From a virus, in the IMG/VR virus record IMGVR_UViG_3300032331_001951, positions 1-39,985 of that record: DNA of 39,985 bases; one strand, written 5' to 3'. This document shows positions 1-38,600 of this stretch, piece after piece. Position numbers and translations under genes: made by a program. Within the stretch, counting starts at the first letter, position 1. Each line of letters begins with the position of its first letter. The notes below the pieces were generated by a model. The model had not been told where the DNA came from and did not search any database. It saw only the letters and a program-made list of their open reading frames with translations.

Positions 1-1622
1 AACGTTTTAGCTAATTTACGTAACTCACCTGTTGCTGTGGTCCAATCGTCTTTGATGTCTTTTCTAATTGCTGTTAGGTATTCAGGATTTAACCAAGGGT
101 CTTTTTCGTTACGAACTTTTATTACTCCAGTTTCACCAAGTTCTTTCTTTTCTTTTTCATTTATATATGTTTGAGTTCCAGTACGAGCAATACCTGATGA
201 TCCAGGAATTATTCCAACCATATTATCAATAAACTTTGTGGCCGATAACATTGCTGTTGACAGCGGTTGCATTCCTATTTGTATCACGTCTTGGAATTTA
301 CGTGTGATACCTATTTGTTCTTGCACCATGGCATTGTAGCTAGCCAATGTTTGTTCTATTCCACCTTTGATTTGATCTGCTTGATCTTCTTTGGTCTCTT
401 TGCCTTTGGATGGCATTCTACCAGACATTTGCATTATAGCATTGAATGGCGCCAAGAAATCTGTTTTTCCTACTGTATTGACGAATCGATCATTGTTTTT
501 TCTAGTCTCCTCGGCACCTGCCTTTATTCCCGCCATTTTTTCGTCGTAAGATTTATTTTGATCTTGTAACCCTTCAGTAGCAACGTTTCCAATTGTGTTT
601 ATTATTTTTATTCCATCTTCACTAAGTGTACCAACTCCAGCTAATACATCTTGCATACCACCACGCACTGACTCTGGAACTGAATTTAGTATAGCAAGGT
701 TTGTCGCTAGTTGTTCTTTAATTTTATCTGCTGCTTCTTGTTGCCCTTCTCCTCTAAGCCTTTCCATTTCAGTTTGTTGCATCGATACATAAGCAGCATA
801 TCGATCATTTGACATTGCTTGTTCTAAGGCTTTTTGTTGCTGTTCAGCATTTGCTCCTGTAAGTTTGGTTACTAAGTCTTGTTGTTTGATAAAATCAGCA
901 GCCGCTCTAGCTTGTTCTGCTGTGGTCATGCTTAGTAATCTTTGTGAGTTTCCTAGCTGTGTGGTTGTTTTAAGAAAGTTTCCTAGTCCTTTAGAGATGG
1001 CTTCTTCACTCATGCCTAGGTTCATTAATTCAGCTTGCAGTCCAGTGCGTTTGACTCCTTCGGATAAATTAGCAAATGATTGTAGACCTATCTTTACTGA
1101 CCCGCCGAATCCAGCTAAACTTTCGGCATTTTCTTTGATCATTGCATTGAATTGAGGCAGTTGAGCAATGCCAAGACCAAACTGCTGCATGGTGTTAAAC
1201 ACACCCTGTAATCCTTCTTTACCTGTTGCACCTACACTGGAGATATCTTGATAACTTTTGTATAGTGCATCAGTTTGTTTGTTTACTAGAACAGCATAAT
1301 CACCTGCTTTAACTCCCAAATAGTCAAATGTTTTGCCCAAAGGACCTAATAGGGTTGTCAATGATCCAAAAGTTGATGCGCCAGCTTGAATAGCATCATT
1401 ATAGGCTGACTGGCCTTGATAACCTTGATTTAGGCCACCGGCTAATCTTCCTAAACTATCGGCAAATTTAGCAGATTCTCTTTGAAAATCTGCTAACTCT
1501 TTACTACTAGCACCGCTACCTAAACCACTAAGGCGAGCCAACCTAGCAGATTCTTCTGCCTGAATGCGGGCATATTCCCGCATCTGTGATTCAGTCATTC
1601 CGGGTGGTGGTGGTGCGCTCAT
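1..1622 (-). CDS. Tail tape-measure-like protein, N-terminal part (runs off the left edge)
   Basis: An open frame of 540 codons runs leftward from ATG 1622-1620 to the window edge without a stop. It is preceded by a good ribosome site (AAGGA, 6 bases before ATG). The protein begins MSAPPPPGMTESQMREYARI and is rich in Ala, Gly, Gln and Lys. It is largely helical in appearance, with heptad-like stretches (for example around residues 265-310) and no enzyme motif. Length, composition and position next to gp26/gp51, whose T4 neighbours include the tape measure gene 29, suggest a tail tape measure or another long internal tail protein. Its start lies 65 bases from that of gp26, in the opposite direction. 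The tape-measure assignment rests on context and composition, since I see no diagnostic motif. The reading frame itself is secure. Confidence 0.6.
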   Translation of the reverse strand, partial: MSAPPPPGMTESQMREYARIQAEESARLARLSGLGSGASSKELADFQRESAKFADSLGRLAGGLNQGYQGQSAYNDAIQAGASTFGSLTTLLGPLGKTFDYLGVKAGDYAVLVNKQTDALYKSYQDISSVGATGKEGLQGVFNTMQQFGLGIAQLPQFNAMIKENAESLAGFGGSVKIGLQSFANLSEGVKRTGLQAELMNLGMSEEAISKGLGNFLKTTTQLGNSQRLLSMTTAEQARAAADFIKQQDLVTKLTGANAEQQQKALEQAMSNDRYAAYVSMQQTEMERLRGEGQQEAADKIKEQLATNLAILNSVPESVRGGMQDVLAGVGTLSEDGIKIINTIGNVATEGLQDQNKSYDEKMAGIKAGAEETRKNNDRFVNTVGKTDFLAPFNAIMQMSGRMPSKGKETKEDQADQIKGGIEQTLASYNAMVQEQIGITRKFQDVIQIGMQPLSTAMLSATKFIDNMVGIIPGSSGIARTGTQTYINEKEKKELGETGVIKVRNEKDPWLNPEYLTAIRKDIKDDWTTATGELRKLAKT

Positions 1623-1686: not shown

Positions 1687-2520
1687 ATGCTACCAAACAA
1701 CCCCCTAACTCAATACTTTCGACAACCAGCTATTCACATCAGATTGCCCAGTCAAGGCAAATTCTACCCACAAGGCACATTAAACATGCCACCAAACGGC
1801 GAATTACCAGTACTACCCATGACGTCAGTGGATGAGATCACATATCGAACCCCAGACGCATTGTTCAATGGATCTGCCACTGTGAGCGTGATACAAAGCT
1901 GTGTGCCATCCATTAGAGATCCCTGGAGCATGCCCAGCACAGATATGGATGCTGTGTTAGTGGCCATACGCATTGCCAGTTACGGGCATGGAATGGACAT
2001 TTCAACCACTTGTCCTGCGTGTGAAGAAGTAGAAGATGTTACTGTAGATCTGCGTCGGGTCAACGATTCACTAAGCGCAGGAAACTACGAAGAAAAACTA
2101 CAGATTGGTGATTTGGAGTTTTATTTCCGCCCTCTCACATTCAAATCTATAAATCAAAACAATCAGATACAAATGGAACAACAGCAATCCATTAGATCGT
2201 TTGAATCTTTTACTGATGCTGAACGGTCAGAAAAAATACAAACACTGATGACAGCCATCAATGACGCTACGTTGAGCACAATATCCAGTAGTATAGCTGC
2301 TATCAAATCACCCACTGCCTTGGTTACAGAATTTGAGTTTATTTTAGATTATTTAAAAAACACCGACAGCAAGAGCTTTAACTTGATCAAAGATCATGCT
2401 ATTGAACTTAAAAAACAAAGTGAAGTAAAACCATTAGATCTTACTTGTACCAGTTGCAAGCATGAATACACACAGCCGTTTACTTTGGATCTTTCAAGTT
2501 TTTTCGACAACGCCTCCTGA
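1687..2520 (+). CDS. gp26: gp26-like baseplate hub / tail assembly protein (T4_baseplate family)
   Basis: This 277-residue protein belongs to the family of T4 gp26, a baseplate hub assembly component. The N-terminal part (AIHIRLPSQGKFYP, then VLPMTSVDEITYRTPDALFNG) and the DPW motif are typical of the family. Two CxxC pairs, CPAC near residue 109 and CTSC near residue 254, look like a split zinc ribbon. The start ATG follows AGGAAAAAT. The gene ends with TGA at 2518-2520, but a slippery heptamer at 2499-2505 lets the frame continue into the gp51-like sequence. The product is therefore probably made in two forms, 277 residues and about 349 residues. This resembles the short/long pair of tail assembly chaperones in lambda-like phages. 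Family assignment is firm; the chaperone role is inference. Confidence 0.85.
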   Translation: MLPNNPLTQYFRQPAIHIRLPSQGKFYPQGTLNMPPNGELPVLPMTSVDEITYRTPDALFNGSATVSVIQSCVPSIRDPWSMPSTDMDAVLVAIRIASYGHGMDISTTCPACEEVEDVTVDLRRVNDSLSAGNYEEKLQIGDLEFYFRPLTFKSINQNNQIQMEQQQSIRSFESFTDAERSEKIQTLMTAINDATLSTISSSIAAIKSPTALVTEFEFILDYLKNTDSKSFNLIKDHAIELKKQSEVKPLDLTCTSCKHEYTQPFTLDLSSFFDNAS

Positions 2521-2593
2521 CACTTAGTTCAGAAGAGATTGATGAGTTAGTCGACCAGATGGATAAAGATTGTCGAATGATTCGTCAGGAGGC
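2499..2593 (+). promoter_or_regulatory. Predicted -1 programmed ribosomal frameshift signal between gp26 and gp51
   Basis: The heptamer T_TTT_TTC at 2499-2505 lies in the correct phase of the gp26 frame (codons AGT TTT TTC) for a -1 slip. Six bases later GCCTCCTGAC (2512-2521) is perfectly complementary to GTCAGGAGGC (2584-2593). That makes a 10-bp stem closing a 62-base loop and covering the gp26 stop codon. An alternative pairing, TTCGACAA (2503-2510) with TTGTCGAA (2570-2577), overlaps the slip site. After the slip, the -1 frame reads on through the whole gp51-like sequence. Spacer length and stem strength match known -1 signals. The 3' arm also carries AGGAGG, eight bases before an in-frame ATG at 2601, so internal initiation is a competing or additional use. 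Confidence 0.75.
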
Positions 2594-2735
2594 TTTAAAA
2601 ATGAGTTGGTTCATGCGAGGAGGATTAACTTATGATCAAGCCATGGCTCTGGGCATACAAGAACGTGAAGTTATCAATGACTTGATCAAAGAGAACTTGG
2701 AGACCACCAAAAAAAGTGGATTGCCATTTTTTTAG
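2505..2735 (+). CDS. gp51: gp51-like baseplate hub assembly protein, expressed as -1 frameshift extension of gp26
   Basis: This frame has no strong start of its own at its 5' end. After the slip at 2499-2505 it adds 76 residues to gp26, ending TTKKSGLPFF at TAG 2733-2735. The segment MSWFMRGGLTYDQAMALG and the terminal KSGLPFF are what I recall of short gp51-type proteins of marine T4-like phages. T4 gp51 acts as a catalyst of baseplate hub assembly. The region upstream of ATG 2601 (DELVDQMDKDCRMIRQEALK) looks like real coding sequence, which favours frameshifting or an upstream start. A 44-residue product starting at ATG 2601, behind AGGAGG, is also possible. No catalytic motif is visible. 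Confidence 0.75.
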   Translation, partial: RQRLLTLSSEEIDELVDQMDKDCRMIRQEALKMSWFMRGGLTYDQAMALGIQEREVINDLIKENLETTKKSGLPFF

Positions 2736-2787: not shown

Positions 2788-3570
2788 ATGTTTATTCAAA
2801 ACAAGTACAAAAAATGGTATGATGCTATTATTAAAAAAGCACAATCAAGGTCATCAACATCCACATATTCTGAAAATCATCACATCCTACCACGTAGTCT
2901 AAGTGGTAGTGACCTAATAGAAAATATAGTCACACTTACTGCTAGAGAACATTTTATTTGTCATGTGTTATTGACCAAATTCACCACAGGTGTACACAGA
3001 CATAAAATGTTATATGCTGCTAACATGATGTCACAAGTATCAAGAGATTATCAAGAGCGTTTTATACCAAATTCAAGACTTTATGAAATGATCAAAAAAG
3101 AATTTGGTCAGATGCATTCAAAAAGATTAACTGGACGTATACTCACCAAAGATCACAAAGCAAAGATTTCGGCAGCCGGGCGTGGCAGAGTAAGTTCTCA
3201 AGAAACCATCGAGAAGCGACGTACATCGTGTACAGGTAAAAAACGTACACCTGCACAAAAAGAACGAATGCAGAAAGCACAGCTTAATCGTAAGGAAAAA
3301 ACACCAGAAGAAAAAGAGGCTATAGCTTTTAAACTATCTCAAGCACTAAAAGGTAAATCTACTGGTGCAAAGTCAGACGCACATAAAGAGAAGTTATCTA
3401 AGTCATTGGCAGGTAGAAATAAAGGTATTCCTAAGTCAGAAGAAACTAAACAAAAAATGCGTAAACCAAAATTAGAAGCGCACAAGAAAGCAATTTCAGA
3501 AGCACGTATTGCAAAATATAAAGCATTACGTGAGTTATCTGTTTCAAGACTTGCTACGCAAGTCTATTGA
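2788..3570 (+). CDS. HNH homing endonuclease with NUMOD3 DNA-binding repeats
   Basis: This 260-residue protein has an N-terminal HNH fold. His31-His32 sit in ENHHILPRS, Asn46 in ENIVTL, and His55 and His59 in REHFICH, the expected metal and catalytic positions. From about residue 115 to 225, several Lys/Arg-rich copies of the pattern SxExxxKxxxxxxGKxx appear (such as HKEKLSKSLAGRNKG). These are typical of NUMOD3 modules that grip DNA in phage homing endonucleases. The start ATG is preceded by AGGAG. It stands alone between gp51 and a convergent operon, with non-coding structured DNA behind it. Such enzymes are usually selfish elements that cut a related genome lacking the insertion. The cut site cannot be told from the sequence. 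The basic C-terminus is complete. Confidence 0.85.
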   Translation: MFIQNKYKKWYDAIIKKAQSRSSTSTYSENHHILPRSLSGSDLIENIVTLTAREHFICHVLLTKFTTGVHRHKMLYAANMMSQVSRDYQERFIPNSRLYEMIKKEFGQMHSKRLTGRILTKDHKAKISAAGRGRVSSQETIEKRRTSCTGKKRTPAQKERMQKAQLNRKEKTPEEKEAIAFKLSQALKGKSTGAKSDAHKEKLSKSLAGRNKGIPKSEETKQKMRKPKLEAHKKAISEARIAKYKALRELSVSRLATQVY

Positions 3571-4943: not shown

Positions 4944-5372
4944 TTAAATCTTGTTTAAAATTTGCCTGCCATGTACTCTTACCTGTATATGGCCGTTGTA
5001 ATAATCTAGTGATTCCAATACCTGTCTACTGAACTGCTCGCGTGCCTCAATGTATGAGCATTCACTCTTGCTTGCACAGTAGTAGAGTATTTCTCTGGTG
5101 AAATTGTCGGTGCCTAGTTTTTCGATGTCTGCGGATAGCTCTGCGCTGGATCCATAATATTGTTGCCAATCTGAATCAATTTTGCTTCGTATCCGTTTTT
5201 TCTTCTTGATGCCGTTTTTTTGTTTGACTGTTCTGTAAGTGGTTTTTGAGAACTTTGCCAGTTTTTTGCCTATGTATTTGCGTCCAGTGAGATTATTTGT
5301 GATCAAGTAAACAAATCCTACACATGAGTCGGGCAATGTCTCCACCGGGGTGTTTTGATATAGCCATGTCAT
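4944..5372 (-). CDS. GIY-YIG nuclease superfamily protein
   Basis: This 142-residue protein carries the GIY-YIG signature as VYLI (21-24) and KYIG (32-35). It is followed by a Lys/Arg-rich stretch (residues 36-65), a WQQYYGSS motif, and a C-terminal YIEAREQF segment that supplies the usual glutamate. No separate DNA-binding module is attached, unlike typical homing enzymes of this class. It may therefore be a resident phage nuclease rather than a mobile element. The start has no clear Shine-Dalgarno sequence and lies 29 bases after the SDR stop. It is the penultimate gene of the leftward operon. Nuclease activity is inferred from the motif alone. Confidence 0.7.
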   Translation of the reverse strand: MTWLYQNTPVETLPDSCVGFVYLITNNLTGRKYIGKKLAKFSKTTYRTVKQKNGIKKKKRIRSKIDSDWQQYYGSSAELSADIEKLGTDNFTREILYYCASKSECSYIEAREQFSRQVLESLDYYNGHIQVRVHGRQILNKI

Positions 5373-5401: not shown

Positions 5402-5986
5402 TTATGCCTTGTAGTTGAAGTTTACGTAAAAAGTTGCCTGTTCTATCGTTGTGTTTGCGTTGATATTTGTAGTATAGTTGATAAAGTTGCTGATGTCTTC
5501 TAGTTGTTGTCCATTGCCGGTCCATGTGGGCCTGCTACGGCTGAGTTCAGTATCCAATCGATCCAGTGTGAGCAAAGTGGTTCGAAATCTCACTAGATCT
5601 TGCTTGAATGCCTGTGTTCCTTGCCTGCTGGCATGGCTTAATGCTGCTTTGCTGGCTCTGTATGTTTCCCACCTAGGTTCGGGTGCTACAATGCTTTGTT
5701 CGCCCACAGAGCCAATATTAAAAATCCATCCGGATTTATCGGCTGCTTTCCAAGCATCGTAAACAGCCATGTATACCTGTGTCTGCCCAAAATCGGCCCA
5801 GGATTCTTGTGGTGGTCCATCAAACGCATTATTCACAAACACATCATACTCAAGACTCATCGCTGCGATTTCTTGATGATTTTTTGTGATATCAAATCCA
5901 TTTGTACGGCTTATACTCACAGCATCAAATTGTTCCACTAGGTGTTGTCCTAGTCCTTTATTGCCACCGGTTACTAACATTTTCAT
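5402..5986 (-). CDS. Short-chain dehydrogenase/reductase (SDR)
   Basis: The NAD(P)-binding motif TGGNKGLG lies at residues 6-13 of a 194-residue protein. It is followed by VNNAF (the NNAG-like motif), the catalytic Ser in NIGSVGE, and the YxxxK pair in YRASK. It is shorter than the usual 240-260 residues, lacking much of the C-terminal substrate loop. I place the start at ATG 5986, because it overlaps the upstream stop as ATGA and follows AAGGAGG at nine bases. An in-frame ATG at 6010 lies inside the radical SAM gene and would add eight residues. The enzyme should oxidise or reduce a carbonyl/alcohol in the cytoplasm. Tight coupling to the radical SAM gene suggests a shared pathway, but the substrate is unknown. 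Confidence 0.8.
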   Translation of the reverse strand: MKMLVTGGNKGLGQHLVEQFDAVSISRTNGFDITKNHQEIAAMSLEYDVFVNNAFDGPPQESWADFGQTQVYMAVYDAWKAADKSGWIFNIGSVGEQSIVAPEPRWETYRASKAALSHASRQGTQAFKQDLVRFRTTLLTLDRLDTELSRSRPTWTGNGQQLEDISNFINYTTNINANTTIEQATFYVNFNYKA

Positions 5987-7119
5987 CTTATGGATCCTCC
6001 TTGATCCCATACCTTGGTAAATTTACTACCACAGGTCATTGCACATTCAAATAACCTATGTTCATTGTTCCAACTATCTACTAGATCACTCCACATGGGA
6101 TTTTCAAATACACCAGCCAATGAATTGTTGTATATGTTGAGATTGTCCAGTCCATATCTTGACAAGAAGTCTGTGATCTGATTGCGTCCATTGTGCTGGC
6201 TCAATGAATTGGCACCAGGCAAGCTACCATCTCTAAATCTAGCATCATACAGATTGTGATTGAAAAAGTTGCAAGGTAGTACCACACCTTCGGCGTTGAT
6301 AGCCACTTTGTGTCCTAGCATAGCATCACAGCGTATGGGAGTAGTATCAAAATATTCTTTAACTGATGCATATTGATTTTTGAGATCGGGCAAAAACATC
6401 ATGCTGGTATTTCGATATTCTGGATTAATCGGTGGCTCTAATACCTGATTGCTATTTTTAATAGGCCATGAGTTGATCTCTTCCATAGTGTCATGATTGA
6501 GGAATCTGCCAGTTTTGCGAACTAAAATGTTATGGAATCCCATGCTGTTGGCCAGTTGTTTGGCCTGTTCAACTTGATGCTCGTTGTGCCGGAACACAAT
6601 GTAGTTCCATTGGGCACGGCCACCGGCATTAATAAACGCCTGTGCATTGGCCATGACTCGATGATATTTTACATTTTTGCGATAGAGATGTAAGGTATCT
6701 TCAAGCCCATCTATGCCAAAATCAATTTGACCGTATCCATTCATGATACCAGCTATCTCTGCCCAGTACTCAGGGCCATGCACACCACCATTGGTATGCA
6801 TGTACAACCATAGGCTAGGATTCTTGCTGCGAAAATCACGCAGTATTCCCAAGAAGTCTGGATGCATGATTGGATCACCATAACTGCCACAGAAGAATAT
6901 CTGTCTGAGACGGCTGCATAGATCTGTATCAAATGCACGGTCTATCACAGCACGATCAAGATGGGTCAATGGCATGTAAGGATTGATACCTTGGCCAAGA
7001 TCATTACGTGGGCATTGCGGACAAGCCGCATTGCAATATGTGGTTATCTCAATCTGATATTCGTCAATTTGAAAAAAATCAAACAAGGTCGATATCCGTG
7101 CTATAACTGGTAAACCCAT
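5983..7119 (-). CDS. Radical SAM enzyme with SPASM-like C-terminal cysteines
   Basis: The 378-residue protein has the [4Fe-4S] SAM cluster motif CNAACPQC, with Cys29, Cys33 and Cys36. A GSYGDP segment (78-83) sits at the place of the GGEP motif that binds SAM. C-terminal cysteines Cys264, Cys283, Cys359 and Cys363 could hold an auxiliary cluster, as in SPASM/twitch proteins that modify peptides or sugars. The ATG at 7119 overlaps the end of gp46 by 41 bases. An AAAGAG ribosome site lies just before it and no better start follows. Its stop overlaps the SDR start. Reductive radical chemistry in the cytoplasm is secure from the motif. The substrate (peptide, nucleotide or sugar) is not. Confidence 0.85.
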   Translation of the reverse strand: MGLPVIARISTLFDFFQIDEYQIEITTYCNAACPQCPRNDLGQGINPYMPLTHLDRAVIDRAFDTDLCSRLRQIFFCGSYGDPIMHPDFLGILRDFRSKNPSLWLYMHTNGGVHGPEYWAEIAGIMNGYGQIDFGIDGLEDTLHLYRKNVKYHRVMANAQAFINAGGRAQWNYIVFRHNEHQVEQAKQLANSMGFHNILVRKTGRFLNHDTMEEINSWPIKNSNQVLEPPINPEYRNTSMMFLPDLKNQYASVKEYFDTTPIRCDAMLGHKVAINAEGVVLPCNFFNHNLYDARFRDGSLPGANSLSQHNGRNQITDFLSRYGLDNLNIYNNSLAGVFENPMWSDLVDSWNNEHRLFECAMTCGSKFTKVWDQGGSIR

Positions 7120-8873: not shown

Positions 8874-9800
8874 TCAATTTGATTGGATCTTATATTTTGC
8901 AAAAATAGATTCGAAGTTTGTTGTATCTTCTCTAACATACTCAATAAACTGTTTTAAAGTAGTCTTGCCCCAGGTCTGGTATCCCATGTTGGCAATTTGA
9001 TCTTGAACAGTTTTGCTAGAAATAGTCTTCTGCAATGCTTGTTCAAGTGCTAGTCGGTCGGCGGCAGGCATGTCCTTGTTTACATAAAATGCTGCCCACC
9101 CAATAGACACAACATCGATGCCAAATACTTCTTTCATTGTAGGTATCGTTGGGTATTGCATACTACGTTGCTTTGATGTCACAGCAATATATTTTAACTT
9201 GTTTGCATCAAACATAGCTCTTGTTGATGGGATTGTAGAAAAAGAAAAACTTAGATCTTTGTTGTAAATATCAGAATACCAGTTATTAAAGTCTCTATAC
9301 GGAACATGCACTGCATTGTTTAACAAATTAACTGAATCAAGGAACTGCAGGCTAGCTATATGAGCATTTGATCCAACGCCCCATGATCCAAATTTGGGAT
9401 TTGTTCTAACAGCAGTAACAAAGTCTATTGATGGAGTGTTAGATGACGTTACCAGTACCATGTCGTTTTTGAATATAGGGGCTACAGCAATAAAATCTTT
9501 ACGATAATCCTTGTTGTAGAGAAGATGGTACGACATCATGTTCTCTGATACCGCTACTAGCAAAACATTTTTGTTTTCTTTTCGTGATATATATTCCATT
9601 GCAATCCCACCACTGGCCCCGGGTCGATTTTCAATTACTACGGACTTTCCTAAGTTAACTGAAAGTTCAGCTGCAACGGAACGTGTGATTACATCAGGAC
9701 CTGACCCAGCTGGCAATCCGATTACAATTTTTAATTCTTCGGCCAGAACTTGTCCTGCTAACAAAATGCTCAATACTCCCCAGAAAATAATTTTTTTCAT
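8874..9800 (-). CDS. Periplasmic solute-binding protein, Bug/TctC family (tripartite tricarboxylate transporter type)
   Basis: The 308-residue protein starts with a classical signal peptide (residues 1-20, cut after QVLA). It then shows the Bug-family signatures LPAGSGPD (29-36) and IENRPGASGG (56-65), and the family's C-terminal half with PTIPTMKE. Length is normal for the family and no residue block is missing. Bug proteins bind carboxylates such as citrate, amino acids, nicotinate or terephthalate in the periplasm and usually hand them to TctAB membrane proteins. No such membrane genes are in the window. If functional, the product must work with the host transporter or act as a scavenger or sensor. 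Its ATG overlaps the ANL stop as ATGA, so it is translationally coupled. This is a host-derived accessory gene inside a phage core operon. Confidence 0.9.
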   Translation of the reverse strand: MKKIIFWGVLSILLAGQVLAEELKIVIGLPAGSGPDVITRSVAAELSVNLGKSVVIENRPGASGGIAMEYISRKENKNVLLVAVSENMMSYHLLYNKDYRKDFIAVAPIFKNDMVLVTSSNTPSIDFVTAVRTNPKFGSWGVGSNAHIASLQFLDSVNLLNNAVHVPYRDFNNWYSDIYNKDLSFSFSTIPSTRAMFDANKLKYIAVTSKQRSMQYPTIPTMKEVFGIDVVSIGWAAFYVNKDMPAADRLALEQALQKTISSKTVQDQIANMGYQTWGKTTLKQFIEYVREDTTNFESIFAKYKIQSN

Positions 9801-11233
9801 AACAAGTTGTTTTCCTTTCTAAAAAAATCTCTTGCACTGTTGTAGCTAAATTTAATTTGATCAAAAAATAGTTTTATATCGATGAATTCTACATAGTCGA
9901 TCTCTGTGTTATGGTACATGTTGCGTATCTTGGTTCTCAAAATGTTTATGTTTTTTTCAACAACAGCAACTGAGTCACTATTGCATAGTAGATATAGTTT
10001 ATTGGTAACTGAATCAGGAACTAAAAAACAGTTCTTTCCTAGAATTTCTGTTGTAATTTTTTCTAATTCTGAAATTGGTAATACTACATCATTGACTCTG
10101 AAAATGTCGTTGCGGCCAGAAAGAACAAAGTTTGACTGTTGATCTAGGATGAACGAGTCGTTTAAGCTAGCATTGATATTGTGCAGATGATTAAAAATGC
10201 TCAGCTTAGAACCATCAATTTTAATTTTAAAAAAATCATCCAGTGGTTTGTTGTAGTTTAAAACGTCAAACGTGTCGCTGCATTCTTTGGTAATAGTATT
10301 TACTAGCACTGGACCTAGGGTCTCAGTTGATCCGTATCCTGAAATAATAGAGTTTACATTTTTGTCTTTAATTTGTTGAATCCAGATTTTCTGATTGGCT
10401 TGCACTATGATCAAATCAAGTTGGTGATCTAGTTTTGGTAATGCTTCAAGTAATTCTTCAAGAATAACACGGTTTGGTATCACCATCTTGGTAATTTTTT
10501 CTTCTACAATACGTCTGACGACCTTTTTCATATCATTTTTATACTCAAAGTAGTGAGTGTTGCACACTGACATTGACGGAAAAAAGAACTGTGCAGATGT
10601 TCCTCCGTGATGTATATTTGTTAAGTGCAACACTCGATCCTCAGGTTTAAGATCGTATATCTTTTTACACCTGTTACCTATGTCGTATAAAAAGGCATGA
10701 GTATACCTCATGGGCATCGGTATACTGGTTGTCCCACTAGTAGTAACAGCAAGGGCAACTGTCTCTTCAGTTGCCCACATACTTTTGTTATGTAAACAGT
10801 TAGCTGATGTGTAAGTGTGCCATATAGATGATGGTAGTTGTTTTATTGCATATAAGTCCCCAACTGCTTTTGCTTTTACATCTGCGGTCCTAGGGTCTAC
10901 ATCAAAAACAAATGCATCAAACGGAGCAAGAACACGACACCTTACCGTTTCTGCACGGTCTGGGGATGATGGTTTGTCCCCAACAACTAACTGACCGCCT
11001 AGATCTAAAGCTGCGTAAAGTAACGTAACATATTTTATATCACACAAAGTCATAGAAGGCAGCAGACTTTTATTTGGACCAAAATCTGCTTGCTCGACTA
11101 ATATGTTTTTCCAGTGTTCTATACCAGACATCAAATCATCGTAGCCTAGAACAATTTTTTCATCCTCTAGGTCTGAATATTGGATCCACTGTATATTTTT
11201 AGATATATTTTTGCTGCAAATTAATTTGTTCAT
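9797..11233 (-). CDS. ANL-superfamily adenylation enzyme-like protein (acyl-CoA synthetase relative), divergent
   Basis: This 478-residue protein has the ANL phosphate loop as TTSGTTSIP, an HHGG segment resembling motif A4, the YGxTE motif as GYGSTETLGP, and the hinge-region motif GRNDIFRVNDVVLP followed by SELEKI. ANL enzymes use ATP to turn a carboxylic acid into an acyl-adenylate and then usually a thioester. Several catalytic positions are unusual. The Lys expected after the P-loop proline is Met. The TGD aspartate before the GR motif is not seen. The C-terminal A10 Lys (normally in a GK motif) falls in KFSYNSARDFF without a clear equivalent. It may therefore bind rather than activate acids, or use altered chemistry. 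It overlaps gp47 and the binding protein by 4 bases each. Confidence 0.75.
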   Translation of the reverse strand: MNKLICSKNISKNIQWIQYSDLEDEKIVLGYDDLMSGIEHWKNILVEQADFGPNKSLLPSMTLCDIKYVTLLYAALDLGGQLVVGDKPSSPDRAETVRCRVLAPFDAFVFDVDPRTADVKAKAVGDLYAIKQLPSSIWHTYTSANCLHNKSMWATEETVALAVTTSGTTSIPMPMRYTHAFLYDIGNRCKKIYDLKPEDRVLHLTNIHHGGTSAQFFFPSMSVCNTHYFEYKNDMKKVVRRIVEEKITKMVIPNRVILEELLEALPKLDHQLDLIIVQANQKIWIQQIKDKNVNSIISGYGSTETLGPVLVNTITKECSDTFDVLNYNKPLDDFFKIKIDGSKLSIFNHLHNINASLNDSFILDQQSNFVLSGRNDIFRVNDVVLPISELEKITTEILGKNCFLVPDSVTNKLYLLCNSDSVAVVEKNINILRTKIRNMYHNTEIDYVEFIDIKLFFDQIKFSYNSARDFFRKENNLL

Positions 11234-12246
11234 AGTTCTCTATAAATTTTCAACAACAATTTGTTGTCGTAAAACTCACTTTCGATATTGGTCAACTGAT
11301 CTGTAACAATCTGATCTACGCTTTCAAACTTTACTTCGCCAGGTGCCATATCAGTATCTACTGCGGAGTTCTTGTTGGGTATCAGTGCCATCTCTCTGAG
11401 AGAGTAATCCTTGATGTAGGTTTCTTTGATGAAGTTGGCTTCTTCGTATGAAATCTCAATGTCCAAGTTTACACGCACATGCATTCTGGGCGCCAGCAAT
11501 GTGTCTGCATTATCGATGATGTTGGCAAGTCCTAACACACGATATCTAGGTTGGTCCGGCCAAGCATGATAAACAGGATCTTGGCCCCACTCTAACACAG
11601 TAAGTCCGCGAGCATCATCACCGGCATCAGCATAATTATGCGGAAAACAATTGCCAATGTAAGTGATGTTTTTCTTGGTTTGGCGTTTGTGGAAGTGACC
11701 GGTGAAAACATGTTCAAAGTTGTTGAAGTCTTCTCTCCGTACCTCGCCGTGATCCGGCATCTCTACCATGGCATTCATGAGGTAACCGGGCAATTCAAAA
11801 TGCCCAAACATGTATTTGCCATGAAGTTTAGAAATACGTTTGTGATCGTCACCAACCAGCCAAGGAGCAATAATCACATTGCCGCTTGAGAACCAATCGT
11901 TACAGATTTCTACATTGGGCAAATGCCTAGCCCATTCTACACTTTGGATATCTCGCTTGTCACGATAGTATAGGTCATGATTGCCTGGAATAAAAAACAC
12001 CCGATCAAAATTAGCATTCATGTGCTCCAGTGCCTGTAGGCTGTAGTGTAGTGTGACAATATTTAAGCTGGCTCTATTGTTGTGCCAGTCACCAAGAAAC
12101 ATGCAGGTCTCACAACCTTCCTCTCGTGCCTTGGTAGTAGCCCACTTCACAAAGTTTAAGCAGTCTTCATTGTGAGTGGTGCTGTTTGATTTGAGTCCAA
12201 AGTGGATGTCTGTCATCAAGGCAGCCTTCTTAAAAAGATTACTCAT
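11230..12246 (-). CDS. gp47: gp47-like recombination endonuclease subunit (Mre11/SbcD family phosphoesterase)
   Basis: The 338-residue protein holds the calcineurin-like phosphoesterase motifs in order: Asp13-x-His15 (TDIHFG), Asp53 (LGDWH), Asn89-His90-Asp91 (PGNHD), His149 (FGHF) and His184-x-His186 (GHFH). These bind two manganese ions. With gp46 it forms the end-processing nuclease of T4-type recombination. The size equals T4 gp47 (339 residues). The ATG directly follows a stop (TAAATG) of a possible 21-codon frame. A sigma70-like promoter stands just upstream, at the end of gp55. Its own stop overlaps the ANL start as ATGA. Confidence 0.95.
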   Translation of the reverse strand: MSNLFKKAALMTDIHFGLKSNSTTHNEDCLNFVKWATTKAREEGCETCMFLGDWHNNRASLNIVTLHYSLQALEHMNANFDRVFFIPGNHDLYYRDKRDIQSVEWARHLPNVEICNDWFSSGNVIIAPWLVGDDHKRISKLHGKYMFGHFELPGYLMNAMVEMPDHGEVRREDFNNFEHVFTGHFHKRQTKKNITYIGNCFPHNYADAGDDARGLTVLEWGQDPVYHAWPDQPRYRVLGLANIIDNADTLLAPRMHVRVNLDIEISYEEANFIKETYIKDYSLREMALIPNKNSAVDTDMAPGEVKFESVDQIVTDQLTNIESEFYDNKLLLKIYREL

Positions 12247-26000: not shown

Positions 26001-26493
26001 ACCTGAGCCTTCGGTTCCCACAATCAATCAACTTAGTACAGCATATCAAGGACTCGACGCTTACAAGATGATATCTGACAACATAGTTTTGAATTCAGTG
26101 ACCTTTAAGCCACTGTTCGGTCCCAAAGCCGCTGAGAATTTACGTGCCACTATCAAAGTGATTCGTGCTGCAAATTCAACGGCCAGTGTGAGTGAAATCA
26201 AAACACTGGTAGTGGCCAATCTTAATCAATACTTTGACATCGGTGTATGGAATTTTGGTGATACATTTTATTTCTCTGAACTAGCTGCGTATATCCACAG
26301 AAACATGGGCGGTATTGTGAGTAGTGTGGTGGTGGTGCCAGTAGATCCTCAACGTTATTTTGGAGATCTTTATGAAATACGATCAGCACCCAATGAAATA
26401 TTTGTCAATGCTGCTGGAGTAGAATCAGTAGAAGTGATTACCGCATTGACTTCAACTAATATAAGAACTGCACCTGGCAGCGGAGTAATTTAA
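23017..26493 (+). CDS. gp6: gp6-like baseplate wedge subunit
   Basis: The 1158-residue protein carries the gp6 N-terminal core: [40 protein letters not shown] and [19 protein letters not shown]. This is the most conserved part of the T4 wedge. gp6 with gp25 and gp53 forms the ring whose expansion triggers sheath contraction. It is far longer than T4 gp6 (660 residues), mainly through inserts in the middle (about residues 110-800). The C-terminal part (FWNFGDTF-like [19 protein letters not shown]) resembles the gpJ-type domain. Either ATG 23017 or ATG 23023 can be the start. Neither has a strong ribosome site. Its TAA shares a base with the ATG of the next gene. Confidence 0.92.
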
Positions 26494-29400
26494 TGGCCAC
26501 AACCAAGTCTATAGATTTTTTACCACCAATTTTTCAGACCAGTACTAATAAACAGTTTTTAGCGGCCACACTGGACCAATTGGTACAAGAGCCAGAATTT
26601 AAAAAAACACAAGGGTTTATTGGACGACATGTGGGGCCCGGAGTAAATCCCAATGACTATTACGTGATTGAACCCACTACTAATAGAGCTAACTATCAAC
26701 TCGAACCTGGTGTAATCAGTTTAGTACCTGATACAAATGCTATCTCTGATGCTGTTACATATCCCGGCATATCTGATGCGTTAGCACGCCAAGGTGCATT
26801 CACCGACGACGCTGCACGTCTGTACACTAGCGACTATTATACTTGGGATCCTTTTGTAAATTTTGATAAATTTAGCAACTATTCTCAATACTATTGGTTG
26901 CCTGGAGGACCACAGTCAGTTGATGTTAGTGCCACAGCTATTCCTATTACCGATACATTTGATGTAACTAGAAGTGACACTTATTACAAATTCACAGGGT
27001 CAGCAGCAAAAAATCCAGTGATTACTTTGGTACGAGGTGGTACATATCAATTTGTAATCAATCAAGCACCCGATCAATTTTGGATACAAACAGATCCAGG
27101 TATAAATGGACGGTTGCCGTACGCACCTAACATCAGTTCTAGAGATGTGTTGGGCGTGACCAACAATGGTATATCTGGCGGCACCGTGACATTCAGTGTA
27201 CCATACAAAAACGCACAACAGTTTTATTATGATCTTACATTAGCACCTACTATTCCTACAGCTGGTCAAGTAGACTTGATCACAGACATTGATTACAATC
27301 AAATACAAGGTTCTACTGTTGCAGATTTTTTTATTGCTTATCCTAATGGCATTGATGGTATAACAAATCTTCAAAATCGCAGTCTAGTCTTTAACAATAC
27401 CACAGCACCTACCACAGTGTATCAGATACAGTATCTAGGTACTTTACCTAACCAGACTATAAATTTAGCACCGGTATTGCCAGTTCCGTCATTGAACAAA
27501 TTTACCATTATGTTCGGTGCACAGTACAGCACCACTCAGTGGTATGTAAACGCTTCGGGATATTTTGAACAACTTCCTTTATTGAGTGCAGTGAAAGATC
27601 TGTTGTTTTATCAAGACGGTACCAATCCAGAAATTTTTGGTCAGATTAGATTGATTGATCAAGATCAATCAGAATCTATAAATGTAGATACAGAAATTCT
27701 TGGCAAGAAAACGTATATTGCTCCAAACGGAGTGGTGTTTACCAACAATCTTAAAATAACATTTCAAGGTAATGTTGTACCTTCAAGCTATCAAGGACAA
27801 ACTTATTATGTGGCAGGAGTGGGCACAGCAATACAACTGTTGCTTGAGAGTGATTATATTGTCCCAGAAATCAAAAGAACTGCCAGCACTCCTTGGGATT
27901 TTGTACCTTGGGATTCTGCCAACTGGGATGGCACATTAAATCAACCATTGGATCCAGACTATATTACTATAGCATTAGATAGTCCTGACCTCAATGCATG
28001 GACTCGATCAAACCGATGGTTTCACATTGATGTAATACAAGCAGCAGCAGCATACAACAACACAATCGCTGTGTTGGATAATAATTTCCGAGCCAAACGT
28101 CCTATCATTGAATTTCGTGGCGGAACTCAATTATACAATATGGGTACAGAATCCAAAGACCCAGTGAACATCATTGATTTAAATCAAAGTGATGCATTAT
28201 CAAACGTCAATGGTGCTACTCAATGTTACATAGATGGTTACTTGTTAGCACAAGGCAGCAGAGTAATTTTTGCCAAAGATTCTGATCCTCAAGTACGAAA
28301 TAAAATTTACGTGGTTGATTTTATCAGTCCAGCTACAGGTCCGTTGCCCGATAGCACGTTAGAAGCTGAGCCCGTTATTGATCTAGTACCAGCATCAGAC
28401 GCAGAATCATTGATCAACCAATGTGTGGTTTGTTTAAGTGGTAATACACTAGAAGGCACAACTTTCTACTATGATGGTGTACAGTGGATTCGAGCACAGC
28501 AAAAAACTCAAATAAATCAAAATCCTATGTTTGATGTGTATGACTTAAATGGATACAGTTTAGGCAATCGTGCAGTATATCCAAGTTCAACATTTTCATC
28601 CACAAAAAACAATCTTGGAACCATAGTTGGCGGAAACCCATTGTTCAGTTATGCTATCGGTCCAGGTACTGTGGCAGACACTGTGTTGGGATTCCCACTG
28701 CGATATCTCAGTTTGAATAACATTGGTGACATCGTATTTGATAACAATCTCTACAAAGATACATTTATCTACGTTAAAAATAATGTACAGTTCACTGACA
28801 ATGTTAGCATAGGTTATGTCAGACAATATGCGAATAGAACTGTTTATCAAAAGGAAATTGGTTGGCAAAAAGCAGCGGTCAAGAGCCAAATTTATCAGCA
28901 GTTTAATTTTACCTATCAACCAGTCACTATCACTGGGTCAATCACAGGCACCACACTGACAGTGACTGTGGCTCCTGCCGACGGCTCATCATTGCTGATA
29001 GGACAAGGCATCAGCGGTAGTGGGGTCACCGCAGGTACACAAATCACAGGGTTACTCACTGCCACCGGCGGAACAGGAACATATTCGGTCAATATCTCTC
29101 AGACAGTGGTATCAAAAGAATTGATAGCCACAACACCATTTATATTAGATATAGCTGTGCTGCCCACTGGTACAATACCCAGTGTCAAATTGTATGCCAC
29201 CAGCATTTCTCAAAATTACAGTAGCTTGTTTCAAGATCCGGGCAACTACACAGTGTCCACAACTGATACCGCCACGGTAATAAGAGTTAATCCAACTACA
29301 AAATTGGTATATGGTGATATTGTGGAAGTGCTGGCTCTTAGCGACCAAGTCAGTGCCGTGGGATTCTATCAAGTACCTATCAATTTAGAAAACAATCCAT

Positions 29401-32400
29401 TGAATGGCAATAGTGATTACTTTACATTGGGTACAATAAGAACACACTATGACTCAATTGCACAAAATCTAGTAGATTTAACTGGTGCAATAAATGGAGC
29501 CAATAACTCAAGAGATCTTGGAAATATTGTTCCATATGGATTGAATATTCTGCAACAAAGTTCTCCTATGACACTGGCTGGATATTTCCTTCGCAAGCCT
29601 GAATATAACATTTTCGCTTCGTTGGAATACAATTCAAGAGAATACGAAAAGTTCAAAGCACAGTTTTTAAACACAGCAGTTCAAGGTGACTACACAAATC
29701 TTACTATTCCTGAAATACTCAATGCAGTGTTTTTAGAAATCAATACTGGCCGCACAAGTTCAAATCCATTTTATTGGTCAGACATGTTGCCTACAGGAAC
29801 AGTATACACACAAATTCAAACCACAGTGACACCGATCACTGATCGGGTGTTTGATCTTACGCAGGTATACAATTACACTTCAGCAAATTATCAAGCATTG
29901 TTGGTATATGTAAACGATCGTTTATTGACTAGAAATGTAGAATACATTGTGAGTGTTGATGCCCCATTGATTACTATTGACCAATTGGTATCACTAGCAG
30001 TGGGTGACGTAGTGACCATTCAAGAATACGAAGCTACCAGTGGCAGTTATGTTCCTAACACTCCTACTAAATTAGGATTGTATCCGGCGTATGTGCCAGA
30101 AATATTTTTAGATACCACTTATGTAGACCCTATTTTTGTAATACGTGGACACGACGGATCAATCACTAGAGCATTCAGCGATTTCCGCGATCAATTGCTT
30201 TTGGATTTTGAAACAAGAATTTATAACAATTTGAAGTTAGACGGAAATCCTGTGCCGCTGACCTCGGCAGAAGTTATTCCAGGACAATTCCGCACCACAG
30301 ACTATTCTCTTACTGAGATACAAGAAATTTTAAACCAAGACTTCTTGACCTGGGTTGGGTGGAACAAACTGGATTATAAATCACAAGATTACATAGCAGC
30401 CAGCGCATTTACTTGGAACTACAGTACAGCATCGAACAAACTCACAGACAATCAACCATTGGCGGTTGGTGCCTGGCGCGGCCTCTATAATTATTTTTAC
30501 GACACCATTTACCCCACAACCAGACCTTGGGAAATGTTAGGATTCAGTGAAATGCCTGTATGGTGGATGAACGAATATGGTCCACCACCATACACTTCGG
30601 GTAACTTGGTACTGTGGGGAGATCTAGCAGCAGGTTTAGTACGAGATCCTATTGCTCCTTATGTACGACCAGAATATGTTCGTCCTGAATTGTTGCAAGT
30701 AATACCAGCTGGTAGCGAAGGTGCATTATTGAGTCCTATGCAAACTATAGTTGGTAATTTCAACAGCAATGATTTCCAGCGCAGTTGGGTAGCTGGTGAT
30801 GACGGTCCTGTAGAAAATGCATGGCGCACTTCAAGTGCATATCCGTTTGCTATTATGCGATTACTGGCGTTGACTCGCCCAGCTGAATTTTTCTCATTGT
30901 TTGCCGACAGAGATCTTTATAAATTTGACACAGATTACAACCAATATCTATACAATCAACGTTATAGATTGGATGCCAATGGTGTAGAAGTCTACGGTAA
31001 CGGAATCAGTAAAGCCAGTTACATTGATTGGATTGTGGACTTCAATCGCCAAACTGGAATCAACTCCACTGACGCACTCACTACTGATCTTAAAAATCTT
31101 GATGTAAGATTGTGCTATAGAATGGCATCGTTTACAGGCAAAAATTTATTACAAATTTACACTGAAAAATCTAGTCCTAACAGTTCAAATTCTAGTTTAT
31201 TGTTGCCCGACGACAGTTATAATTTGTTGTTCTACAAAAATGTGCCGTTTGACCAACTTACATATTCCAGCGTGATTGTGCAAAGCACCGGTGCTGGGTG
31301 GGCAGTGTATGGCTATAACATGTCGCAACCATATTTTAATATTTTACAAAGCCGCATAACTGGAAATCTTGCTACTATTAGTTCGGGCGGCAGTACAATC
31401 CGTGTACCGGTGAATTATACCAATGATATAGTGCAAATACCGTATGGTTACGTGTTTACCAACCGCACATTGATAGCTGACTTCTTGTTGAGCTATGGTA
31501 AATTGTTGCAGAATCAAGGCTTAGTATTCAACACAATAGAAAATGGATATGTGTTGGATTGGAATCAAATGGTCAATGAGTTCTTGTACTGGAGCAATCA
31601 AGGATGGGAAACTGGCTCAATTATCAATCTCAATCCAGGAGCCAGCAAGTTTATCGTAGAAAGACCAGGTGCTATAGTAGACAGCATTGCAGCACAAACC
31701 GTGGAGAACATGGTTCTCAATGCCGACGGCAGGCAGTTCAATGCTAGAGATCTTGTGATTGAACGACTGGATAACATGTTTAGCGTTACTAGTTTGAGCT
31801 CTGAAACTATCAACTTCCTCAACATCAAGTTTACCAATTATGAAAATATGATTGTGTTGGATAATGTTAGTATCTTTGGCGATTTAATTTACAATCCTGT
31901 AACTGGAGCAAGACAAAGTCGTGTGAGATTAACAGGATGGAATACTACCCAATGGAACGGTCAACTCAATGCGCCTGGATTTATACTAAATCAAAACAAT
32001 ATTAAACCTTGGAATCCGTTAAAGAAATATGCCCGTGGTGAAATTGTTGAATGGAAAAACACCTACTACAGTGCATTGGACATTGTACAACCTTCTAAAA
32101 ACTTTGACATTACAAATTGGACAGTGTCTGACTACACTTTAATACAGCAAGGTCTATTGCCCAACGCTGCTAACAAGAGTGATCAGCTGGCCAACAGTTA
32201 TAACGTGTACACTGCTAATCTTGAACTCAATCAAGATTTATTTGCCTATGCATTGATTGGATGGAAACCCAGACAGTACATGGTAAACTTAGAATTGGAT
32301 AGTACCAGCCAGGTACAATTGTATCAACAGTTCTTAGGAACCAAAGGCTCTTTACGTGCAGCAGATGTCTTTTCTTTTGCCGATCTTGGTCGTGGACCAA

Positions 32401-35400
32401 CACAATACCAGATTTATGAAAATTGGGCAATCCAGCGCGGCATCTATGGCGCCAATGCCAATCGTAGTTTTTATGAATTACAACTCAATGCTGCTTTGTT
32501 GAATTTTAATCCCAGCACTATACAAGTAGTGTTACCTGGTGAAAGCAGCGAAGCTAATCAAACAGTATTGGTAAACAACTTGTGGAAGAGCAGTTACAAA
32601 ATAACTTCTCCAAACATACTGACCACCGAAATTGTACCAGTGGGCACCGCCGCATTGCCCAGTGCCGGATACGTAAACTTTGATGACGTTGATATTACTG
32701 TGTTTGATCTTTCCGTTCCGGTAAACTTGAATGCAAATCTCACCGATATCAATTTGGCCTCCACAATTTGGGCAGCTAAGATCAATGAGTACGATTGGGG
32801 AATTTACAGAACCAGCAAACTGCCAGGATATTTAAGTTCAGTGACTACTAATCTTGATGGCACCAGTGTGTTTACATTTACAGAACCACATGGTATTACC
32901 ACAGTCAATGCTACTACTGCGGATCTTACATTTATAATTAGATTTTTCTCTGATCTAGTAGATGGTGCTTACAAAATATTACGTGTGCCTAGCATCAATC
33001 AATTTGTGGCTGTGTTTAGTTTTGCCAATCAGAATCAAATCAATGCAACAGGCAACGGCATAGGGTTTGTATTACAAACTCAACGTGTGAGCCAAGCCAG
33101 CGATGTACTTAATTTACCTTACGCTAATAGCTTTATTCCAGGTAACAAAGTATGGGTAGATAACAATGGCCTAGATCTGTGGGAAGTATTAGAAAAACAA
33201 GATGTATTCACTTCTAAGAATGAACTCACTGCTAAAAATCCAGTGTCGGGCAGTTTGTTTGGGCAAAGTGTAGCACAAAGCAAAAACAACACCTATGCCA
33301 TAGTAGGTAGTCCTGGATACAATTCAGGAAGTGGTGCAATATACACCTACGTAAGAACATCAACAGTACCACTATTAGAAAATTCAATAATTGAATTGTC
33401 AGCAACAGACACTATTGGATTTGGGCAATCTCTCAGTATAGGCAATCAAACTTGGCAAGTAATAGGAGCACCTGAAAGTTATACCAGTCGAGGCTACGCA
33501 GCAATTGTATACCTACAACCGGGTGTTGCTGATTTTTCAATTACATCATTGCTTACTGTTCCAGAACCTAAAGATTTAGTGTATCCAGCAGAGTTTGGTT
33601 ATAGTGTAGTTGTAAGCTCTGACGAGCATTGGATGTACGTGAGCGCCCCGGGCATCAACAAAGTGTATGCATACGGTCTTGTAGAAATTCCAACACAATC
33701 AGTAAAATACATCACAGATGGCGACACAACTACCTACAACTATGATAATCATATTATGGTTGATAGTGCATATCCCGGCCAGCTCTCAGTAGTATTAAAC
33801 AATCAACTACTAACTGATGGGGTTGATTATATACAAACTGCTACCAACGTTGTTCTCAACACACCCCCTCCTAAAGATTTAGTATTACAAATTAGTCGCA
33901 GAACTTCAACCACCTACACTGGTGATGGATCTACTGGATTGTTCTCGTTGGACGAATATTTGTATACCGCAACCAACATTTACAGTTTCATTGTGATACT
34001 GGATGGAGTAATACAACGACCAAACATTGACTATGAATTCAATGCTGACTACAGCAGCTCTGGAAGAGATTTAATATTCTTTACTGCACCAAGTAATGGA
34101 TCATCTATCATTGTCAATACTAGTAGCTACTATACTTTTGTTGATACTTTAGAATTTACCACAGAATTCACAGCTGAAATTTCAGGCAGCACAATGACTG
34201 TGACCAGTGTTCCTATTGGTGCATCTGCTCTGTCAGTTGGTATGATACTCAGTGGCAATGGTGTGGCACAAGGCACACGTATCACTGAACTAGTAAGTGG
34301 TACCGGTGGCACTGGAACTTATCTAGTGACTCCAGGACAAAGCACTGCATCTACTGCTATCACAGCTAGATTGGCCAATAATGCAAGATTTGGTGCCAGT
34401 TTGTCCTGTACTGTGGACGGACAACAAGTCAGCATTGGTGCTAACGCCGATTCGTCAAATGGCATAACAGAATCAGGTACAGTTTATGTATATGATCGAT
34501 CAGTACAAAATTTTGTAATTACAAATCCTACACAAACATCTTACACAGTAGATGGTGGAGTATTAGTATCGCCAACTTTCGTGTCATTAAATAATACATT
34601 TTTAACCAACGCCGCAGAAAATATTAATGGAACATTCACTGTTGATGTAGATACAGTCACTGTTGACGTTCCGTTAGCTGTGGGCGATGTGTTACAAATA
34701 CAAACAAATACATTTAATTTGTTGCAAATCATTTCAGCCAATGTTCCAAATAAAAACGCAAGTTTTGGATCAGCAGTAGATATTTGCAGATACAGTTGCA
34801 GCTTATATGTCGCTGCACCACAAGACAGTTCTGTATTACAACAAGCAGGATCAGTTCAACGTAATGTAAATCAAAGTAGACTGTACGGCGTCACTACCAG
34901 CACTAATACGGGTGTACCATTGGTGCCAGGTCAAACTATTCGAATCAACAATCAAGAAGTTGCCGTCGGCACACCTGATTATTGGAACAGCGGTAGCAGT
35001 TATGACAAAGATCAAATTGTAGAATATGCACAAATATTATACATAGCTATCCGTGCGGTGCCTGTGGGCACAGCGCTCACAGATACCACATATTGGCAGC
35101 TCAGCAGTTGGCCAGCGGTGCTGGCACAAGATATCAATGCGTCAGGTATAGATAATGTAGTAGCCACAGCTGGCATAGCTGGCACAAGCAATTACGGATT
35201 GTTAACCATTAGCGTAAAAAATATTCTAGCCGCTGAAGAAGGCAATCGACTAACCGTGTTGCCTGGGTTGATTGGAATTGTGTTCCAAAGTCTGGGATTT
35301 AACACTTATGTTTACACACAGACTATAACTAGTCCTGCTCCTTCAATAGATGCTAAATTTGGATCAGCTCTAAACATTGATACATCAGCTACTACATTGA

Positions 35401-38400: not shown

Positions 38401-38600
38401 TTAGTCAGAATACTGGATGGGATGTAGGCAACTGGGATGTAAATCCTTGGGATAACATTGCTTATGGTCCAGAAGGCCGTCCCACTTATGATCCAGCAAT
38501 TTTGGATACCATTTACGAAAGCAGATTCTTAGATGTGTATCTGGGAGTTCGCCCCACAGATATCAATGTTGTGGGTGGTGAGTTTGTTGGTCCATATTAA
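26493..38600 (+). CDS. Giant baseplate/adhesin protein in gp7 position, ended by a suspicious TAA
   Basis: A 4035-residue protein beginning [20 protein letters not shown], a conserved N-terminus of very large proteins next to gp6 in aquatic T4-like phages. T4 gp7 (1032 residues) sits in the same place. Recognisable parts: tryptophan-rich [13 protein letters not shown] (about 470); an Ig-like repeat (812-879) with a second copy (2557-2627); repeated loop modules such as [14 protein letters not shown]; seven FG-starting segments of FG-GAP type between about 2255 and 3075, suggesting a beta-propeller; and three W...Y..G..V...Y.A patterns like carbohydrate-binding modules (about 1838, 2828, 3882). 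A likely role is a wedge component plus host-surface binding. The stop at 38598-38600 is not a natural domain end: the same frame continues open to the window edge. Confidence 0.85.
28930..29130 (+). repeat. Ig-like adhesin repeat, copy 1 (inside giant protein)
   Basis: The encoded segment [20 protein letters not shown], followed by an [15 protein letters not shown] and [10 protein letters not shown] core, is a module often found in phage tail fibres and adhesins. It is repeated about 1,750 residues later. Here it interrupts a more conserved structural stretch, which suggests insertion by domain exchange. Confidence 0.7.
33258..35740 (+). repeat. Seven FG-GAP-like repeats (predicted beta-propeller) in the giant protein
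   Basis: Seven segments start with FG(Q/Y/A/S/T)(S/A) and end in a V/A-G-(S/A/V)-P or similar turn with a following aromatic strand. They are FGQSVAQ, FGQSLSI, FGYSVVV, FGASLSC, FGSAVDI, FGSALNI and FGTSVNY, at about residues 2255, 2309, 2367, 2632, 2757, 2955 and 3043. This is the cadence of FG-GAP/integrin-alpha blades. Blades 3-4 are separated by the second Ig-like repeat, and blades 5-6 by a carbohydrate-binding-like module. Seven blades would close a propeller. Confidence 0.6.
34165..34373 (+). repeat. Ig-like adhesin repeat, copy 2 (inside giant protein)
   Basis: The encoded segment [18 protein letters not shown], with [15 protein letters not shown] and [17 protein letters not shown], matches copy 1 in order and spacing. 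It sits between two FG-GAP blades, so it would project from the propeller rim. Confidence 0.7.

Follow-up and report, generated by a model that had tools for sequence, protein, structure and literature searches.

A probable -1 programmed frameshift in a T4-like tail assembly chaperone gene of an uncultured virus lineage

A gp26-like gene lies close to one end of the window, by which we mean the whole stretch of 39,985 nucleotides analysed here (IMG/VR virus record IMGVR_UViG_3300032331_001951, positions 1 to 39,985). It stops shortly after a run of six T, and a second reading frame stays open beyond its stop codon. This locus raises the question of whether the two frames are two genes or a single gene that ribosomes read in two ways. 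According to our comparative analysis, it is very probably a T4-like tail assembly chaperone gene decoded by -1 programmed frameshifting into a short and a long form. The parts of this reading that the sequences support are the in-phase heptamer, its conservation, the coding constraint in the -1 frame and the homology to gp26. The features concerned are the following.

3-1622, minus strand: tape-measure-like virion protein gene, divergent and running off the window, assigned via L082 and GAP32
1687-2520, plus strand: gp26-like gene, putative short chaperone form (TAC-N), 277 aa; PF12322, phrog_150, invariant columns
2499-2505, plus strand: slippery heptamer T_TTT_TTC, in phase here and in cultured relatives, conserved throughout the relatives
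2505-2735, plus strand: gp51-like C-terminal domain (TAC-C) in the -1 frame, reached by the putative slip and giving a long form of 349 aa; purifying selection and homology to jumbo-phage -1 frames
2506-2511, plus strand: spacer of 6 nt from slip site to stem
2512-2593, plus strand: predicted stem-loop, arms 2512-2521 and 2584-2593, with the gp26 stop within the 5' arm; folding and codon-randomised stability excess, weak covariation
2518-2520, plus strand: zero-frame stop TGA, end of the short form; same offset in 103/105 sequences
2587-2603, plus strand: AGGAGG (2587-2592) with ATG 2601, from which a C-terminal piece of 44 aa might be initiated independently; ATG in 38/62 sequences

An in-phase heptamer at the end of a gp26-like gene

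The product of the ORF at 1687-2520 matches PF12322 (T4_baseplate, E=3.9e-15) in Pfam and phrog_150 (baseplate hub, E=5.4e-16) in PHROG, and it contains four conserved cysteines, C109, C112, C254 and C257, all of them in invariant alignment columns. Its AlphaFold model has a pLDDT of 84.9. A Foldseek search of this model against the PDB gave no match with E<=0.001, and VIA-align placed the HK97 tail assembly chaperone 2OB9 at rank 2 (102/107 residues, rmsd 4.5, with a Z of 5.8 that is under the tool's secure level), a weak resemblance of the predicted fold that we take as suggestive only.

Codons of the gp26-like gene start at positions equal to 1 mod 3, so that TTTTTTC at 2499-2505 is read as T_TTT_TTC, a heptamer of the X_XXY_YYZ type in zero-frame phase, as the initial annotation had claimed. 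The -1 frame that it described as open after the heptamer up to 2735 was likewise found, ending with the stop codon at 2733-2735 and coding for a product that reads ...FFRQRLLTL... across the junction. Two scans of IMG/VR with the -1 frame peptide provided 160 loci, on contigs partly overlapping between the scans, and the window, its IMG/VR relatives and two rhizobial phages together make up 105 distinct sequences. Alignment of these junctions, proposed at the outset as a check for a conserved slip site, placed TTTTTTC at the identical codon in 105/105, and the run consists of exactly six T followed by C in every sequence, a longer run occurring in none. On a tree of approximately 20 substitutions per site, no substitution fell at 2499-2506, while third codon positions just upstream of the heptamer changed 8-38 times each. 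Codon bias does not explain this invariance, since Phe and Ser/Asn codon usage is mixed within the same genes of the relatives. Moreover, 10/105 sequences have a stop codon in the -1 frame directly 5' of the heptamer, which excludes entry to the downstream domain by an earlier slip. As judged across these sequences, the arrangement of the heptamer is beyond chance.

Cultured phages have the same signal. Eight cultured jumbo phages (Cassandra, PBECO4, CBB, XaC1, GAP32, BF, Hallingskeid and RaK2) carry an in-phase TTTTTTC close to the gp26 end, as do the rhizobial jumbo phages Atu_ph07 and Phosso. The distance from the start of the heptamer to the zero-frame end ranges in these ten phages from 12 to 42 nt, with differing stop positions.

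A stem over the stop codon

In the window, the 6-base spacer and the perfect stem over the gp26 stop that had been claimed were borne out. GCCTCCTGAC (2512-2521) pairs perfectly with GTCAGGAGGC (2584-2593) over 10 bp, the TGA at 2518-2520 being inside the 5' arm, and the 6-nt spacer falls in the range of approximately 5-9 nt for a stimulatory structure. The 95-nt region has a predicted fold of -30.5 kcal/mol (z -4.15 versus dinucleotide shuffles; 0/200 shuffles equally stable), and the window is also stabler than its synonymous-codon randomisations (z -2.78; 0/150 as stable). Over the relatives, natural folds exceeded such randomisations in stability with a mean z of -2.1 and p<=0.05 in 67/105, the sequences being related and the trials non-independent.

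RNAalifold returned no consensus structure for 103 gap-free sequences, and the alignment columns of the stem covary weakly; arms that hardly vary, or that are displaced between sequences, may be the reason. For this reason we argue for the stem from the stability excess and from a stem of other spelling in Atu_ph07 and Phosso, which are approximately 30% identical in gp26 and have GGCTCTT/AAGAGCC stems at the same site. The stem is not found in every relative: local 7-bp arm pairing near the slip site was absent in 29/105 sequences. A perfect helix common to all relatives was considered and rejected; in some of them the arm may be elsewhere or missing. Five relatives (L153, L155, L166, L170 and L177) keep GCCTC(C/T)T 3' of the slip site and lack the usual 3' arm, and a candidate arm is located approximately 113-116 nt downstream, near MRGG codons. 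In most of the jumbo phages, the folds predicted 3' of the slip site include no convincing stop-covering stem. From these comparisons we conclude that the heptamer would be the essential element and the stem a frequent, dispensable stimulator.

Coding constraint in the -1 frame and rival readings

No stop codon interrupts the -1 frame in 62 distinct sequences (0/62), and the other frames are closed in 62/62 and 60/62. In the stretch from the zero-frame stop to ATG 2559, the -1 frame bears the mark of purifying selection (omega ~0.49, z 10.1) and the other two frames have no such signal. The constraint persists if this stretch is shortened so as to exclude the alternative starts 2547 and 2550. 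On this comparative evidence, selection acts on the protein encoded in the -1 frame, beginning at the slip site.

The initial annotation had considered the downstream frame devoid of a strong start of its own, which is wrong for the window: ATG 2601 is in the -1 frame, 8 nt after an AGGAGG that sits in the 3' stem arm. This start is not conserved. The codon is ATG in 38/62 distinct sequences and ATA, ATC, CTC, TTC, TTA or CAA in the others, and one relative, L079, has no ATG, GTG or TTG before position 2604. ATG 2559 is kept in 59/62 sequences, and in the window no recognisable Shine-Dalgarno precedes it. Because the -1 constraint extends upstream of ATG 2559, which in the window lacks a recognisable Shine-Dalgarno, and because the ATG at 2601 is found in part of the sequences and L079 is startless before 2604, independent initiation cannot, judging from the sequences, be the general mechanism.

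Translational coupling deserves separate consideration. The -1 frame would then be a separate small gene, with an AGGAGG hidden in the stem until ribosomes translating gp26 set it free, so that initiation at ATG 2601 would yield a protein of 44 aa. The position of the AGGAGG within the 3' stem arm, 8 nt 5' of an ATG in the correct frame, agrees with such a scheme, as do the records of several phages, where the downstream frame is annotated as its own gene, and the ATGA overlap in Atu_ph07 and Phosso, at which translation could reinitiate. However, only 38/62 sequences have the ATG, the coding constraint reaches upstream of ATG 2559 and of 2547/2550 up to the zero-frame stop, and distant relatives keep the heptamer together with a stem that is free of GGAGG. 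Coupling would also leave the invariant in-phase TTTTTTC unexplained, and we think it very unlikely that it replaces frameshifting. It could act as an addition to it. The stem would in that case have a double role: besides stimulating frameshifting, it would, wherever codon 2601 is ATG, hide the Shine-Dalgarno for coupled synthesis of a free C-terminal domain. We regard this combination as unlikely; if true, three chaperone forms would come from one gene.

The long form could also arise before translation, if RNA polymerase added or dropped bases in the T6 run and thus edited the mRNA. The homopolymer run common to all junctions is in keeping with this. Nevertheless, transcriptional slippage usually requires longer homopolymer runs and this one is exactly six T and then C in 105/105, never longer, while the strict phase and the downstream stem fit ribosomal slippage better; we therefore deem it extremely unlikely. 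As for a sequencing or assembly error that split a continuous gene, single-base homopolymer errors are common, but contigs independent of one another show the same arrangement, as do the finished genomes of cultured phages, which many different laboratories have produced. The comparative data already refute such an error, to which we give practically no chance.

We thus favour -1 programmed frameshifting, and we infer slippage itself, at a rate that would let most ribosomes stop at 2518-2520 and release the short gp26-like form (TAC-N). A minority, aided in the window lineage by the stop-covering stem, would slip back by one base on T_TTT_TTC and produce the long form of 349 residues with the C-terminal domain (TAC-NC). 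Of the roles these products could have, tail assembly chaperone would be the best supported, since they belong to the gp26/gp51 family and would come in a short and a long version, and since the adjacent gene has a relative among jumbo-phage virion proteins. Lambda gpG/gpGT (PMC5009743) suggests the binding partners: if the analogy holds, tape measure protein would be coated by the short form, and tail tube subunits would be recruited through the long form's C-terminal domain.

T4 genes 26 and 51 and other chaperone systems

The -1 frame of the eight jumbo phages is homologous to that of the window family, and the C-terminal domains of the two match with E ~1e-9; the domain of the window alone has no significant PHROG or Pfam match. 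The records of these eight phages, among them GAP32 (L188), PBECO4 (L185), RaK2 (L191) and Cassandra (L184), either list the -1 frame, and with it the C-terminal domain, as a hypothetical gene of its own or leave it unannotated. Further in-phase heptamers are present in cyanophage S-RIM8, OLIVR6 and Aeromonas phage 65.2 (TTTTTTC) and in phiM9 (TTTTTTG), and the -1 frames of these four match phrog_634, annotated 'baseplate hub assembly catalyst'. Profile similarity between the C-terminal domain of the window family and the cyanophage/T4 type is weak (E 0.02-0.6), and when profiles of the window families were set against individual T4 sequences, the similarity was too weak to establish homology by itself.

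In T4, gp26 as well as gp51 is a member of PF12322 and phrog_150, the latter being a PF12322 protein in full length that is extended by a C-terminal domain matching phrog_634. T4 has the same protein family, with gp26 as the counterpart of the short form and gp51 as that of the short form plus the C-terminal domain. It differs from the window in that genes 26 and 51 are separate, divergently oriented and without the heptamer. Acinetobacter phage Meroveus likewise has separate, divergent genes 26 and 51, with no in-phase slip site at the end of gene 26, and both products are already named tape measure protein assembly chaperones in its record. Separate genes lacking a heptamer had been named as an observation that would speak against frameshifting. 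They are seen in T4 and Meroveus, but gp51 of T4 is a full-length member of the family, as the model predicts, and the separate genes do not refute it because they are expected where a second gene has replaced frameshifting. On this view, T4 genes 26 and 51 seem to be derived, the long form having acquired a separate gene.

The proposal that gp26 and gp51 are a short/long chaperone pair made by -1 frameshifting finds strong comparative support as to mechanism, and fits T4 gp51 as a gp26-family protein with a C-terminal extension. The initial annotation was unaware of an earlier description, but one exists: to judge from the citing papers PMC10885494 and PMC12846349, a T4-like chaperone frameshift was described in Vladimirov et al. 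2022. PMC10885494 cites Vladimirov, Gautam and Davidson 2022 (PMID 34826709) for T4-like phages that do without frameshifting and have two genes, a short one and a longer, fused one; in PMC12846349 the same work is the reference for T4-like phages with poly-T frameshift signals in their TAC-N genes. As portrayed in these citations, those systems share with the window the short and long chaperone forms and a poly-T -1 slip site in TAC-N genes; they reportedly share the gp26/gp51 family too. Consequently, the window cassette belongs to an already known kind. The window lineage would differ from those systems in being uncultured and in having a conserved stop-covering stem. The abstract by Vladimirov and colleagues reportedly names T4 genes 26 and 51 and describes frameshifting as conserved in several other T4-like groups. 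What is added here, possibly in partial overlap with the 2022 paper, is the evidence of selection, the stem in the window lineage and the list of cultured phages with an unannotated long form. Comparative support for the gp26/gp51 module as a frameshift-decoded short/long chaperone is thereby given across a broad set of T4-like phages, and -1 frames annotated as hypothetical or left unannotated are now identified in known jumbo phages, e.g. GAP32, PBECO4 and RaK2.

The gpG/gpGT frameshift of lambda (Levin 1993; Xu, Hendrix, Duda 2004) is reviewed in PMC5009743, a 2016 review that still gives T4 as the exception. Compared with gpG/gpGT, the window protein is larger, has four conserved cysteines and is a member of PF12322, and the tape-measure-like gene is divergent instead of downstream. 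The slip sequence of lambda differs from T_TTT_TTC. In phage Adele (Vandenendeviridae/Andersonviridae), a -1 poly-T chaperone frameshift at GTTTTT joins TAC-N to a frame annotated as hypothetical protein (PMC12846349). The likeness of Adele to the window is one of arrangement, and it differs in phage family and in slip sequence.

The product of the minus-strand gene at 3-1622 is 60% identical to L082:1900-3936. The latter is distantly homologous (E=9e-8) to a virion structural protein of GAP32 (phrog_14121), and the related jumbo-phage virion protein weakly resembles tape measure proteins. The initial annotation had placed the cassette beside a tape-measure-like gene; the neighbour is a candidate for such a gene by its distant similarity to named proteins and not by a family match, and it is divergent.

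On the other side, a free-standing HNH/NUMOD3 homing endonuclease (2788-3570) lies directly 3' of the chaperone cassette, and a SegE-type GIY-YIG endonuclease is found at 4944-5372 (PF19835, E=1.4e-32). The minus strand at 5402-7119 codes for a radical SAM protein and a short-chain dehydrogenase-like protein with overlapping ends. At 26493-38600, a single ORF of 4035 aa, the first 500 residues of which have no Pfam match, follows a baseplate wedge gene. An unusual phage cargo is the tripartite tricarboxylate transporter receptor TctC at 8874-9800 (PF03401, E=1.1e-29). Next to its gene are those of an AMP-binding enzyme at 9797-11233 and, at 11230-12246, of a metallophosphoesterase.
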